The position numbers and the translations under genes are program-made. A stretch of DNA of 64,000 bases from the NCBI GenBank assembly GCA_020849615.1, contig JADLFW010000017.1:62001-126000 (forward strand), written 5' to 3'. The notes under the pieces were generated by a model. The model saw only the letters and a program-made list of their open reading frames with translations, was not told the DNA's origin and ran no database searches. Source of the DNA: Phycisphaerales bacterium (GTDB lineage: Bacteria; Planctomycetota; Phycisphaerae; Phycisphaerales; UBA1924). Positions 21,453 to 30,617 of the stretch are shown here, one piece after another (position 1 is the first letter of the stretch; every line of letters begins with the position of its first letter).

Positions 21453-22371
21453 TGTGAACTACCGCCCAGACGGCAAGGGCCTCGGCGGCAAAGCGGGCAT
21501 CAACCCACTCGCGAACGCGGCTGGGCTGGGCGAGGCGCAGGGCCACGGATGACACCGCGGTCACGATGGCCCAGGCGATGCAGGATCGGCGCGGCCCGGG
21601 GATGATCGTGATCAGGGCGAGGGCGAGCAGCAGGCGGACCGACATGGCGGTGTTCCAGGCGCGGGCCCGGCCAAGACCTGTGGCGAGGGTGGCGGTGCCG
21701 AAGGCGCGGTCTGCGGCTTCATCATCGAGGTCGCAGAGGGCGGCATCGGCCCAGACGCGGACGATCAGGTGCGCTGCGGAAGCGGCGATCGCCGCCGCGT
21801 GCGACCGGATCGAGCCGAGGGGGTCAGCGCTTTGCGAGAGGATCGTGATGAGGGCGGCGAAGCCGGTGATTCCGGCGGCGACGTAGAAGTTCTTGAGGAG
21901 GAACACATCCTTGATGCGCGGGCGGGCCCGGCGCGGGCGGCCCGCGTAGGCGATCACGCCCGTTGCGGCGGCGAGAACGAGGGCCGGCGCCAAGGGGGAG
22001 ATGAAGAAGCCCAGGACCGCGGCGACCAGCAGCAGGAGGCCCGACAGGATGCGGACGGCGCGGGAGCGGCGGGCGAGGAAGCGAAAGCGATGGGGATGCG
22101 CGGCATCATCGGCGGGGTCGAGCCAGCGGTCGGCGAGCTTGACGCGGTCGAGTAGGTAGACGGCGGCGGCGGTGCAGAAGGCGAAGGCGAGGAGGTGGGC
22201 CCGGCGCCCCGGCGTGGTGGAGGGCCACAGCCGGGCGAGGTCGGCGAAGCAGTAGACGCCGGCGGCGATGTAGAGGCCCGACCAGACCGCCAGGTGCGAG
22301 GCGGCGGTGAGCAGGACCGGGCCCGCCGGGGCGCGGGAGGGTCCGGCGGCGGATGGGGCGGTGGGGTTCAC
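21442..22371 (-). CDS. UbiA-superfamily prenyltransferase-like membrane protein
   Basis: This is a 309-residue polytopic protein with about eight membrane helices. Two aspartate-rich loops fit the UbiA superfamily: L-L-D-R-V-K-L-A-D-R-W-L-D near residue 75 and C-D-L-D-D-E-A-A-D-R-A-F-G-T-A-T-L-A-T-G-L-G near residue 215, equivalent to the two Mg-prenyl-diphosphate sites. The acceptor (quinone, chlorophyll, lipid) is unknown. It starts with a GTG that overlaps the TGA of the DinB-like gene (GTGA), so the two are translationally coupled. Confidence 0.75.
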   Translation of the reverse strand: MNPTAPSAAGPSRAPAGPVLLTAASHLAVWSGLYIAAGVYCFADLARLWPSTTPGRRAHLLAFAFCTAAAVYLLDRVKLADRWLDPADDAAHPHRFRFLARRSRAVRILSGLLLLVAAVLGFFISPLAPALVLAAATGVIAYAGRPRRARPRIKDVFLLKNFYVAAGITGFAALITILSQSADPLGSIRSHAAAIAASAAHLIVRVWADAALCDLDDEAADRAFGTATLATGLGRARAWNTAMSVRLLLALALITIIPGPRRSCIAWAIVTAVSSVALRLAQPSRVREWVDARFAAEALAVWAVVHIIP

Positions 22372-22817
22372 TCGATAGGCTTGAGGCCCTGGAGCGCGCG
22401 CAGGTAGTTGATCTGCCCGAAGTGGTAGCAGTCGTGCGGGAGCACATAGGTGAAGGCATCGGCATCGGCGGCGAAGTTGCGCAGGCCCTGGGCGGTGCGG
22501 GTCTGCGTCTCGACGAAGCGGCGGCGGGTTTCGGCCCAGGCCTCCTCGGTCGGCTCGCGGATTTCAGGGAAGTTCAGGCGGGCCAGCTGTTCGGGGGTGG
22601 GCTTCTCGCCGGTCGCGATGCGGTGGAGCCAGCTCTCACGCCAGAACATCATGTGCAGGACGATCTGCCAGATGGAGTGCCGGCCCGGCGCCGGCGACCA
22701 GGCGGCCTGCGCGGCGCTCAGGCCGTCGAGCGACTTGCTCCACGAAGCAGCCCAGAGGCCATCATCCCAGGCCTCTTCCCACCAGGTCGCAACCCACTCC
22801 CGGGCGTCCTTCTGCAT
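22368..22817 (-). CDS. DinB-like four-helix protein (copy 1)
   Basis: This 149-residue protein resembles the DinB/YfiT-like metalloenzyme fold: W-Q-I-V-L-H-M-M-F-W-R-E-S in the second helix and H-D-C-Y-H-F-G-Q-I-N-Y-L-R in the last helix give the three-histidine metal site. Members include thiol-dependent S-transferases, but most are uncharacterised. The ATG at 22815-22817 has GGAG eight bases ahead; the longer frame upstream is non-conserved Pro/Arg-rich text. It is coupled to the UbiA-like gene. Confidence 0.8.
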   Translation of the reverse strand: MQKDAREWVATWWEEAWDDGLWAASWSKSLDGLSAAQAAWSPAPGRHSIWQIVLHMMFWRESWLHRIATGEKPTPEQLARLNFPEIREPTEEAWAETRRRFVETQTRTAQGLRNFAADADAFTYVLPHDCYHFGQINYLRALQGLKPIE

Positions 22818-26738: not shown

Positions 26739-27092
26739 TCAGCCGTAGTGCGAGACCGATCGCTCGATGAGCCCGCGGGGCGAGAGGAAGAAGATTTCGG
26801 CCGCGAGGTCACCCGTCATGCGCTTGTAAACGAGGATGACACTTTCGAGGCCCGTCGTCATGTGCAGCGGATCGAAGCGTAGCGTGGGGTTGCGCTCCAG
26901 GGCCCGGCCGAAGTAGTCGCGGACCGCGCCGATACCGTCGAGGAAAGTGTCATCGGTCCCGTTGTAGCGCTTGATGAAGGGGGAGCTGTGGCGGATGGTG
27001 GGCTCATAGCACGCCATGATGGCATCCAGGTCGTGGGCGTTCCACGCGGCGTACCAGCGGTCGGCGAAGGCGCGGGTCTGGTCGGGAGTCAC
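26739..27092 (-). CDS. SnoaL/NTF2-like protein
   Basis: This 117-residue alpha+beta cone-fold protein opens with R-W-Y-A-A-W-N-A-H-D-L-D-A-I-M-A-C-Y, typical of SnoaL-like ketosteroid-isomerase relatives. F-L-D-G-I-G-A-V-R-D-Y-F-G-R follows. Function is not predictable. It begins with a GTG sharing four bases (GTGA) with the stop of the FRG gene, so it can be translated from the same message although its base composition is like the rest of the chromosome. Confidence 0.78.
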   Translation of the reverse strand: MTPDQTRAFADRWYAAWNAHDLDAIMACYEPTIRHSSPFIKRYNGTDDTFLDGIGAVRDYFGRALERNPTLRFDPLHMTTGLESVILVYKRMTGDLAAEIFFLSPRGLIERSVSHYG

Positions 27093-27970
27093 TGGTTCTC
27101 CTCAACTCGCCCGTCAATCTCGACCGACGCCTTGTCGGCAACTGCCCCGTCCGAACGGCCAAGCATCAGGCCCGTTCCCGAATGGAACTGCTCAAACGCT
27201 TCATGCATCAATCCACCTAACCATATAATGCCGGACGTATTTACGTGTCGTGCCACCCCATCGGCGTCAGGAAACAGCGTGCTAAACGTTATGTTCATTC
27301 TTTGCAAATCGGCCAATGCCCTCCATATGTCGTTACACTGTATCTCAAATTTCCTGAGGACGGCACCCCCGCCCTTCGTCACCAAGAACTTCTCCAAGTC
27401 CATTTCCGAGCCATTGAGCATCCTCGTAAAGACGCCGGCCTGCGCTCGCTGACGATGGCTGCGATCGATCGGGCCCACTATAACCTGAATGTCCGACAAC
27501 TTCGGCCACAGTTCATCAATCAACGCCATTTCCCACACAGCGACAGAACCCGGGATACTGACGCCCCCGTCTAGCGCATTCCGATAGAAACCCGGCGACT
27601 TTGCTGCCACCGCATCCACCAGTGCGAAAAATGCCGCAATGAACGGACTTCTCGTCCAGTCAAGCAGCGGCGTCAAGAGCCCGTGGTGCTGAGCTTTCGC
27701 CCACCACTCATTCTCGCTCCACGCCCTAGACTGTTCGAACCCCGGCAAGCCCATGCAGCCGTCTTTGAATCGCTCGAGCCACTTAGATTCCGACGGGCAA
27801 TCGACAGACTTGTTGCAATCCTCTAACGTCCTGTGAAAACTTGCGACAAGTCCCCAAGACAAATCCCGTTGTCCGCGGAATATCCGGTTTCCTAGATATC
27901 GCTCTGCGCGCACCGACGACACGAAGCTATCCCACGAAATGCACCTTACCTGCGTTGTGCTCTTTGTCAT
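27089..27970 (-). CDS. FRG-domain protein of low GC
   Basis: This 293-residue protein has the FRG-domain pattern: I-F-R-G-Q at about residue 30, then A-Q-H-H-G-L-L-T-P-L-L-D-W-T-R-S-P-F with A-A-F-F-A. The family is found in many bacteria and phages, its biochemical role is unknown, and members occur near defence genes. Two sampled 60-base lines are 55% and 50% G+C, well below the neighbours, which points to recent acquisition. It sits 12 bases after thiC on the same strand and overlaps the SnoaL-like start, so it may be co-transcribed from the riboswitch-controlled operon. AGGA lies just ahead of the ATG at 27968-27970. Confidence 0.85.
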   Translation of the reverse strand: MTKSTTQVRCISWDSFVSSVRAERYLGNRIFRGQRDLSWGLVASFHRTLEDCNKSVDCPSESKWLERFKDGCMGLPGFEQSRAWSENEWWAKAQHHGLLTPLLDWTRSPFIAAFFALVDAVAAKSPGFYRNALDGGVSIPGSVAVWEMALIDELWPKLSDIQVIVGPIDRSHRQRAQAGVFTRMLNGSEMDLEKFLVTKGGGAVLRKFEIQCNDIWRALADLQRMNITFSTLFPDADGVARHVNTSGIIWLGGLMHEAFEQFHSGTGLMLGRSDGAVADKASVEIDGRVEENQ

Positions 27971-27982
27971 TGTTCCTATCCA

Positions 27983-30004
27983 TCAGATCACCCGATCTTC
28001 CTTCGCGATCCCCAGCGCCGGGCGGACATCAAGCGGGACAAGGACCTCCCGGCCCGCCTTGGTCGCCTGCAGTCGCTTGGCTTCCTCGGGGTCCACGTAG
28101 TCGGAGTGGCAGGAAAGTTTCGAGGTCGATGACTGACCTCCGTCCGGAGAGCCCTCCCTCACGGTCGGGCTGCTTGCCCGCCCGGCCATCGCCGTCTTCG
28201 TTTTCGTCGCCAGCTTGTGGATCTCATCCGGGCTCAGCACGCCGCGCTTGGCGAGGATCTCCTGCTGCTCCGTGGTCAGCGCTGCCGACTTGACGGGCCG
28301 CCCGCGCTCGAAGCCCTCCGCCTTGCCGCTGGCGAACTCCTGGATCTCCTTGCTGATCCGCACGCTGCACCAGTCGTGCCCGCACATGGCGCAGAAGTCA
28401 GTGTCAACATCCAGGTCCTCATCGTGGTACGCCCGGGCCGTGTCGGGGTCGAACGACAACTCGAAGTGCTTCTCCCAGTTGAGCGCAGCGCGGGCCTGGG
28501 TCAGGTCATCATCGCGGTCGCGCGCTCCCGGGATGCCCAGCGCGACATCCGCTGCGTGGGCCGCGATGCGGTAGGCGATGCACCCCTGCTTCACATCATC
28601 CTTCTTGGGCAGCCCGAGGTGCTCCTTGGGCGTCACGTAGCAGAGCATCGCCGCGCCGTGGTAGGCCATCGCCGTGGCGCCGATGCACGAGGTGATGTGG
28701 TCGTAGCCCGGGAACATGTCGGTGACGAGCGGGCCCAGCACGTAGAAGGGCGCGCCGTGGCAGATCGTGCGCTGGATCTTGGCGTTCCACTCGATCTGGT
28801 CGAAGGGGATGTGGCCCGGGCCCTCGATCATCACCTGCACGCCGTGCCGCCAGGCCCGCTCGGTGAGCTCGCCCAACGTCTCGAGCTCCGCGATCTGCGC
28901 CTCATCCGTCGCATCGGCCAGCCCGCCCGGGCGGAGCCCATCGCCGATCGAGAACGTGACGTCATATTGCCGCAGGATCTCGCAGATGTCCTCCCAGCGC
29001 TCGTACATGATGTTCTCGCGGCTATGCACGAGCATCCACTTGGCGAGCAGGCTGCCGCCGCGGCTGACGATGCCTATGAGGCGGTTCTTCACGTACTTCA
29101 GGTGCCCGCGGCGCACGCCCGCGTGGATCGTGAAGTAGTCCACACCCTGCCGGGCCTGGTGGTGCAGGCTCGCCTCGATGGTCGGCCAGTCGAGGTCTTC
29201 GATCTTCTTGCCGATGATCATCGAATAGATGGGCACGGTGCCGATGGGCACGGTGCTCGACTTGATGATCGCCTCGCGGCACTCATCGAGGTCGCCGCCG
29301 GTGGACAGGTCCATGACCGTGTCGGCCCCCCACTTCTCGGCCCACTTGAGCTTCTCGACTTCCTCATCGGTGCCGCTGGAGACGGGCGAGGCGCCCATGT
29401 TGGCGTTGACCTTGGTGCGGCTGGCCCGGCCGATGGCCATGGGGTCGAGGTTGTATTTCAGGTGGTTGATGTTGGCGGGGATGACCAGCCGCCCGGCGGC
29501 GACCTCATCGCGAACGGCCTCGGGCCCGCGCCCGCCGGAGAGCTCGCCGAAATGCGGCTCTCGCTGCGCAACACGAGCCATCTGCGGCGTGATGATCCCC
29601 AGCCGCGCGTGCTCCAGCTGCGTGACAGGCGTGAAGCCGGGCGGGGGTGTGACCTTGCGGGTAATGCCGCACAGATCGGTGAACGTGAAGGACTCGCAGG
29701 CAGTGCAGGGGGAAGATGAGACGGTGAGGCGGTGAGATGATGAGACGGTGAGAGGAGAACCCTCGGCTCGGCGAGCCGAGGTACCCAGGACCTCGACCTC
29801 CCAGTCCGGCGGCATGAAATCCCAGGCGGTCTTGCCGCTCACCGGCGGCATGCCGGGGGTGTCCGGGCTCGCGAACATCAGCGGCCCGCCCAGGTCGGGG
29901 GCCAGCGCGAATGAGCCGGGCGTGGTGACATCGGGCGTGCGGCCCGGATTGCGGGCGCCGTGGTGCGGGACGCGGAAACGGGAGAGCGGGCTGGGCTGGG
30001 TCAT
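27983..30004 (-). CDS. thiC: Phosphomethylpyrimidine synthase ThiC
   Basis: ThiC converts aminoimidazole ribotide to HMP-phosphate, the pyrimidine of thiamine, by radical-SAM chemistry. The [4Fe-4S] motif C-A-M-C-G-H-D-W-C near the end is diagnostic. Core signatures such as [17 protein letters not shown] and E-G-P-G-H-I-P are present. The start is the ATG at 30002-30004, with AGAGGA six bases upstream; an ATG two codons earlier touches the ribosome-binding site. At 673 residues it is longer than usual. The excess includes two segments encoded by palindromic repeats, near residues 75-97 and after the FeS motif. It is the second gene of a TPP-riboswitch operon. Confidence 0.95.
28150..28171. 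repeat. Palindromic repeat inside the 3' part of thiC
   Basis: AGCCC (28150-28154) pairs with GGGCT (28167-28171) around TCCCTCACGGTC, and a second small palindrome CTCCGTCCGGAG lies just before it. In the thiC frame this stretch encodes a non-conserved Ser/Gly/Pro-rich insert ([13 protein letters not shown]), so the element is translated in-frame. Confidence 0.55.
29716..29781. repeat. Direct repeats and a perfect palindrome inside the 5' part of thiC
   Basis: Units like GATGAGACGGTGAG occur twice, with a related GCGGTGAG between them (29716-29751). They are followed by the perfect 10-bp palindrome CCTCGGCTCG-G-CGAGCCGAGG (29761-29781). The region is in frame in thiC and encodes a variable insert ([20 protein letters not shown]), ahead of the conserved C-T-A-C-E-S-F-T segment. 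Confidence 0.65.
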
Positions 30005-30014
30005 GGACATTCCT

Positions 30015-30617
30015 CTATCGCGCTGCGCCGGCGTTGCGGCGCGTGTAAGGCTTGAGCTGCCTGGTCTCGACCTCGGCCTGCCAGTCGACGACGCCGACCT
30101 CGGGCAGGTCATCGGGGGATGGCTCGATCTCCAGGCGGCGGAGCATGTTCAGGCACTGGGCCCGGTGGTGCATGCCGTGGGTGGCGATGTGCACCAGCGC
30201 GGCGGCCTTGGTGAACGTGTAATCGGTGCTGCCGAAGCGAACGATGATCGTCTCATCCAGCCCGCCATCGGCGGCCGCCTCCGCGACAGCGGCGAGATCT
30301 TCGGCGGCCACATCGAGCAGGTCGATCAGCTCGCGCGGTGTGCGCTGGCGATAGTCGCTGGGCATCTCGGGGTGCCGCGAGGGCTCATCGATGACGGGCC
30401 GGAGGGGCCGCTCATCCACTCGGTCGGCCCAGCGCTGCATCGCCCCGATGATGTGCGTCAGCGTGGCGTGCAGCGAGCCGGGCCCGATGTCGAACTTGCG
30501 GTGGAACTGCTCGGGGGTCAACCCCTCGCAGACCTCCAGCAGCCGCCTTGTTCCCCAGTGATCGTGCTTGAGCAGGATGTCGAGCGGGTCGGATGACAAC
30601 CCCAAAAACTGATCCAT
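30015..30617 (-). CDS. DinB-like protein in the thiamine operon (copy 2)
   Basis: This 200-residue four-helix protein of the DinB type carries metal-site histidines in [21 protein letters not shown] and [13 protein letters not shown]. It is the first gene after the TPP riboswitch and ends ten bases before thiC, so it is very likely regulated by thiamine pyrophosphate. No DinB-family step is known in thiamine synthesis; a thiol-transfer or detoxification role could be imagined but is not shown. The ATG at 30615-30617 follows GGAGGG, which lies inside the aptamer. Confidence 0.82.

Follow-up and report, generated by a model that had tools for sequence, protein, structure and literature searches.

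A foreign FRG-domain gene behind thiC in a Phycisphaerales genome, and the recurrence of its homologues at core-gene stop codons

Introduction

How does a single gene of foreign composition come to stand, tightly packed, behind thiC, and what might it do there? This question is raised by an FRG-domain gene in a 64-kb stretch of DNA from a Phycisphaerales bacterium, hereafter the window. The original prediction, made from the letters of the window, described a single low-GC, cargo-like gene that seemed to have landed in a conserved operon. The joining of existing operons by horizontally acquired genes is a general concept, and the window resembles it in that a foreign gene is appended behind a native operon gene. 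What differs here is that a single defence-like family recurs in this position, next to the stop codons of core genes that are unrelated to one another, and that genus mates lack the FRG gene.

Results

The genes around the insertion form a compact run, all on the minus strand, in which a TPP riboswitch is followed by dinB, thiC, the FRG gene and a SnoaL-like gene (Table 1). The end of the riboswitch aptamer coincides with the start of dinB, and thiC, for which the start at 30010 was chosen by ORF scoring, begins 4 bp after the dinB stop. Between the end of the thiC stop at 27983 and the beginning of the FRG start codon at 27970 lie 12 bp. This spacer, TGGATAGGAACA, includes an AGGA stretch resembling a Shine-Dalgarno motif ahead of the FRG start codon, and, judging from the sequence, the FRG gene's own ribosome-binding site probably sits there. 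At the other end, the FRG stop codon TGA (27091-27089) overlaps the SnoaL start codon GTG (27092-27090) as GTGA, and a Shine-Dalgarno-like GAGGAG for SnoaL lies inside the final FRG codons. Both elements of the tight packing that had been predicted, the 12 bp to thiC and the GTGA common to FRG and SnoaL, can thus be read directly from the sequence.

Table 1. Features of the thiC run in the window
Feature	Coordinates	Strand	Evidence and remarks
SnoaL-like gene	26739..27092	-	Pfam SnoaL_2, E 2.1e-12; the run ends with this gene
FRG-domain gene, 293 aa	27089..27970	-	ORF intact, start ATG; Pfam and PADLOC profile matches
GTGA overlap, FRG stop/SnoaL start	27089..27092	-	sequence
12-bp thiC-FRG spacer, TGGATAGGAACA	27971..27982	-	sequence; proposed left edge of the insertion
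thiC	27983..30010	-	Pfam ThiC_Rad_SAM, E 2.5e-177; immediately upstream of the insertion
DinB-family gene	30015..30617	-	Pfam DinB, E 2.3e-18; first gene of the operon
TPP riboswitch RF00059	30609..30721	-	cmscan 61.6 bits vs gathering score 54.3; 5' leader of the operon

No mobility gene is present among the 14 annotated genes at 21.4-33.4 kb, there is no tRNA in the 64-kb window, and no integrase, transposase or attachment-site repeats were found among the annotated neighbours or in a repeat search around the FRG gene. The sole direct repeat that spans the FRG gene measures 25 nt at 72% identity and lies within coding sequence, and the repeats at the FRG junctions of the window look like chance. 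A scan for promoters of the sigma-70-like type only yielded no such site at 26.5-31 kb. Nor is there an adjacent antitoxin gene, for example of the Xre-RES type, the neighbours of the FRG gene being thiC and the SnoaL-like gene. The region also contains two separate DinB-family genes in a span of about 8 kb (22368-22817 and 30015-30617), the latter of which lies directly behind the TPP riboswitch.

The FRG gene has a GC content of 55.2% vs 68.6% for the whole window. Its GC3 is 65% vs 87-90% in the five neighbours measured, a gap of at least 22 points, and is the lowest among the 57 window genes called (z = -7.9; next lowest 83%), all neighbour statistics being based on our own gene caller. 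The source genome carries one FRG copy. Some FRG match was detected in 23 of the 163 genomes of the family, and in none of the 163 was there a match at thiC, with the thiC loci themselves inspected in a subset of these genomes. The two nearest relatives in the family, at 39-40% identity, belong to genomes G102, where the gene is located behind speA, and G125, and neither is at thiC. (The G125 gene, L139:7231-9234, is arranged head to head with a low-GC gene of 324 aa that has no Pfam match and is a possible partner.) A phage carrier of the FRG gene is unsupported by the phage collection and the viral contigs searched, neither of which held any FRG relative; distant relatives, with 28-35% identity, occur in 11 plasmid records. 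Because of its composition, its single copy in the genome, the lack of FRG at thiC in the family and the location of its nearest relatives at other loci, the FRG gene is horizontally acquired. The low GC content and the description as a single cargo-like gene with no mobility gene among the annotated neighbours were therefore correct, and relatives with an FRG gene of normal composition at the same place, which had been named beforehand as the sign of old vertical inheritance, did not turn up in the family survey.

The prediction placed this insertion in a conserved operon, and this part of it held up only to a degree. The thiC orthologues of the family share 73-89% identity, and the combination of thiC with a TPP riboswitch does recur (G046 and several other relatives have the riboswitch), but the gene that follows thiC is not constant across the family loci examined: it is FRG in the window, a UDG-like gene in G004, a HEC-01 pair in G046, a DUF6891 gene in G175, and others elsewhere. 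In G046, the complete HEC-01A and HEC-01B defence pair lies 21 bp behind thiC and has a GC3 below that of thiC (L149:5994-7756), and in G004 a diverged gene of the UDG superfamily, of about 260 aa, occupies the interval between thiC and SnoaL (L015/L140:6487-7266). Low-GC3 genes without a Pfam match, which are candidate cargo, are also found 51 bp behind thiC in G054 (L027:3256-3807) and 30 bp behind it in G079 (L144:1314-1895). SnoaL orthologues are present in 30 of the 163 family genomes, and several of these genomes have the orthologue and thiC on one contig, 1-6 kb apart. A conserved thiC-SnoaL pair is rejected, given that 1-6 kb of varying genes separate the two in other genomes and that thiC directly adjoining SnoaL was never seen in the family loci examined. 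Thus, the proposed comparison of the thiC-SnoaL junction with relatives lacking FRG revealed varying genes behind thiC but no direct thiC-SnoaL contact. An empty thiC-SnoaL junction was not found in any of the relatives, all of them from other genera, and we therefore infer the insertion point behind thiC by analogy with other FRG loci.

These loci show that the insertion is not an isolated event but one of many FRG insertions next to the stop codon of a core gene, with homologues standing tight behind core genes of 12 unrelated kinds. Counted over 62 FRG homologue loci with a called upstream gene, the upstream gene is on the same strand in 47, and in 22 of the 62 the FRG gene is co-oriented and at most 40 bp from the upstream stop codon. 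According to Pfam, the upstream gene encodes a core enzyme in 13 of those 22 cases, namely, thiC, speA, aroA, leuC (twice), lysS, gatB, nuoB, hppD, mcm, lepA, pdxJ and sucC, where the names hppD, leuC and lysS are sequence-based readings within broad Pfam families (hppD-like, aconitase-family leuC-like in both cases, and class II lysyl-type tRNA synthetase, respectively). Other FRG homologues are located behind or beside restriction-modification genes (HsdS twice, HsdM, an N6/N4 methylase) or HepT. In 58 of the 62 loci, the GC3 of the FRG gene is below that of the upstream gene (Wilcoxon test on GC, p 2e-10). Two other families of single defence genes served as controls. Abi_2 genes are tight in 1 of 10 usable loci, a number that makes Abi_2 alone too small a control, and SIR2_2 genes are tight in 8 of 17, yet behind accessory genes of similar composition. 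Tight co-orientation alone is thus rejected as a hallmark of FRG genes, the SIR2_2 genes being equally tight. When a tight, co-oriented arrangement is combined with a fall in GC3 of 0.15 or more, the counts are 16 of 62 for FRG vs 0 of 27 for Abi_2 and SIR2_2 together (Fisher p 0.002); since the 0.15 criterion was set after the data had been seen, and one of the 16 cases is HsdM, this excess of FRG genes over the controls is a suggestive result that falls short of a clean test. Genome G102 harbors two diverged FRG genes, behind speA and pdxJ (L086 and L111), as well as an Abi_2 gene (L230).

Genus mates without the FRG gene were available at seven loci, speA, lepA, lysS, mcm, gatB, hppD and pdxJ. 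The comparisons comprised lysS in G035 vs G031, mcm in G143 vs G142, gatB in G360 vs G302 and hppD in G061 vs G060, together with lepA in G112 vs its mates and pdxJ in G102 vs G103 and G104. At lysS, mcm, gatB, hppD, lepA and pdxJ, homology breaks at the upstream stop codon or a few codons from it, and at lysS, mcm, gatB and lepA it picks up again behind the FRG gene. The speA proteins of G102 and G103 are 99% identical, with homology reaching the speA TGA; the FRG gene and its flanking bases then take up about 946 bp in G102 vs 46-48 bp in G103 before homology resumes at CACGGCAACG, about 46 bp after the FRG stop in G102. Behind speA, G103 has a hairpin, CACTGGTTG-CTTGC-CAACCAGTG (L156), which from its sequence is a possible terminator and is absent in G102, where the FRG gene sits (L138:7729-8700). 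The lepA locus of genus g24 provides a series of states. The distance from lepA to a glyoxalase-like gene is only 11 bp in G114, and the same interval contains the FRG gene in G112 (with an ATGA overlap), a 175-aa uncharacterised gene in G023 and G115, a HEPN-like gene of 267 aa in G110 and, in G113, a gene on the opposite strand. All the inserted genes behind lepA are lower in GC (L200, L203, L206, L207, L208, L218). The lepA stop codon in this genus is a small exchange site for alternative cargo.

The protein itself belongs to the family that had been proposed. It matches Pfam FRG (PF08867) with 76.3 bits vs a cut-off of 25 (E 3.7e-21), and the PADLOC profile PDC-S15 over the full length (E 2.5e-52; residues 3-245 on profile positions 10-246 of 254), which bears out the predicted association with defence. 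The F/Y-R-G motif of the family is present as FRG at residues 31-33, as is the H-G...LDW motif of FRG/PDC-S15 relatives, and R32, G33, D104, F115, R173 and Q177 are invariant in 36 aligned homologues. What sets the window protein apart within the family is the mere 39-40% identity to the nearest homologues found, a C-terminal helical extension (helix 236-263 in the model) that is alignable in the G102 homologue, and the place of its gene behind thiC under a TPP riboswitch.

The predicted structure (pLDDT 86, pTM 0.85) gave weak Foldseek matches, with E 0.2 at best, of which the top ten in the PDB are ART-type toxins; with VIA-align, 50 of the 50 matches listed are ART-fold proteins, at Z scores of only 3.0-5.6. 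No true relative emerged from sequence searches of solved structures with the protein and the profile, and a Foldseek search against viral models returned nothing useful. The model suggests that R32 occupies the position of the NAD-binding arginine on the first core strand, a placement derived from offsets of alignment ranges and not residue by residue. A canonical R-S-E mono-ADP-ribosyltransferase is rejected: R32 is present but the catalytic glutamate is missing, there being no invariant or near-invariant glutamate in the 36 homologues. To our knowledge, no FRG protein of this branch has been assayed, and we know of no measured activity in the FRG family. In a published sequence analysis, Frg is a clade of the ART superfamily in prokaryotic immunity and a possible NADase effector (PMC9503650), whereas PDC-S15 is a candidate described as uncharacterised (PMC12482510). 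The activity of FRG proteins is accordingly less obscure than originally stated with respect to superfamily and predicted function. The best reading of the window protein is a PDC-S15 defence candidate with an ART-like predicted fold and a predicted NAD-consuming activity.

Among known systems, the RES NADase toxins, which are non-canonical ARTs, resemble this protein in the predicted fold, the putative first-strand arginine and the nature of a small single-domain enzyme of a conflict system. The window protein differs from the ART/RES enzymes in lacking an invariant glutamate, with invariant D104, R173 and Q177 instead, and its use of NAD is a prediction; moreover, RES toxins have an Xre antitoxin as their partner, and no partner gene is visible for FRG.

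Discussion

The explanation that we favor, with moderate confidence, is that a horizontally acquired single-gene FRG (PDC-S15) immunity module, predicted to be directed at NAD, landed directly behind the thiC stop codon and is expressed by read-through. A single FRG unit would have arrived just behind the stop codon, and, because no promoter-like site of its own was detected, the gene would be transcribed by read-through from the thiC operon and retained owing to this expression. Read-through under a TPP riboswitch would be expected to raise the FRG level whenever thiamine pyrophosphate runs short. Infection would then trigger the enzyme, NAD+ would be hydrolysed or modified, or another NAD-linked target affected, and the loss of NAD+ or modification of the target would stop the growth of the infected cell. 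As for the route, cargo exchange by recombination between flanking core genes would be the simplest one that leaves no mobility gene, and such a swap fits the lepA series.

The FRG gene could instead be what is left of a mobile or defence island that was once larger and later lost its other cargo and an integrase. The homologues beside HsdS, HsdM, the N6/N4 methylase and HepT are compatible with such an origin, as are the roughly 46 bp between the FRG stop of G102 and the resumed homology with G103. However, no leftover DNA is present in the window, where the gene is separated from thiC by 12 bp and overlaps SnoaL, and at lepA, lysS, mcm and gatB the FRG gene stands right at the stop codon, while genus mates without it have nothing or a different single gene in its place; we regard an eroded island as unlikely. 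An artefact of assembly or binning deserves mention because the source genome, which is metagenome-derived, consists of 47 contigs at 92.6% completeness. The contig that carries the gene is 164 kb long, however, and the gene is internal to it, the reading frames are unbroken and the junction with the SnoaL start is a clean overlap; similar FRG arrangements also recur across many genomes, which makes an artefact extremely improbable.

A different possibility is that the FRG/ART enzyme has a host role, in stress regulation or in NAD- or thiamine-linked metabolism, and is kept because the control of the operon suits it. A site behind core enzymes with a TPP riboswitch upstream would fit a metabolic or stress function, and the defence labels derive from homology alone, PDC-S15 being a candidate (PMC12482510). 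Against this stand the patchy occurrence of FRG in the family, its foreign composition, the variety of upstream neighbours across genomes, and the complete HEC-01 pair in the equivalent place behind thiC in G046, so that a host role has perhaps a slightly better claim than an eroded island but is still doubtful. Long-standing vertical inheritance within the thiC operon, with a composition that has drifted, might be suggested by the packing of the gene, which overlaps its neighbour on one side as native operon genes do; yet the family survey already contradicts vertical inheritance, the GC3 is far under that of the neighbours, and the nearest relatives stand behind speA or elsewhere, which leaves this reading very little probability.

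The preferred explanation, an acquired immunity module behind thiC, can be set beside the core-gene hotspots cDHS1 and cDHS2 of Pseudomonas aeruginosa, where defence cargo is likewise swapped between fixed core genes (PMC10250203). cDHS1 is not clearly tied to one class of mobile elements, and recombination in the flanks has been proposed (PMC10250203). It differs in being an island of 1-224 kb, with a median of 26 kb, at one site (PMC10250203), whereas the FRG loci comprise one or two co-oriented genes at many core-gene stops. The repeated settling of single genes at these stops is a less common variant of the known hotspots. A more far-reaching proposal is that solitary FRG genes are operon-tail immunity units, either targeted to core-gene stops or kept by selection for read-through, with expression that depends on the host operon. 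We consider this a tentative and rather improbable extension; if true, an NAD-directed effector would here be under vitamin-B1 control through the TPP riboswitch, and the 3' ends of lepA and thiC would be small sites of exchange at which one single defence gene takes the place of another.

Taken together, the window gene adds a member to a candidate defence family that was already known. The repeated occurrence of FRG relatives behind other essential genes hints that genes of this type persist on expression borrowed from core genes. The genus mates with and without FRG at speA (G102/G103), lysS (G035/G031) and mcm (G143/G142) and in the lepA series make both arrival and expression testable. 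The search for defence genes usually concentrates on islands close to integrases, and if single defence genes also settle at the ends of core operons under host promoters or riboswitches, they would be missed by island-based searches.
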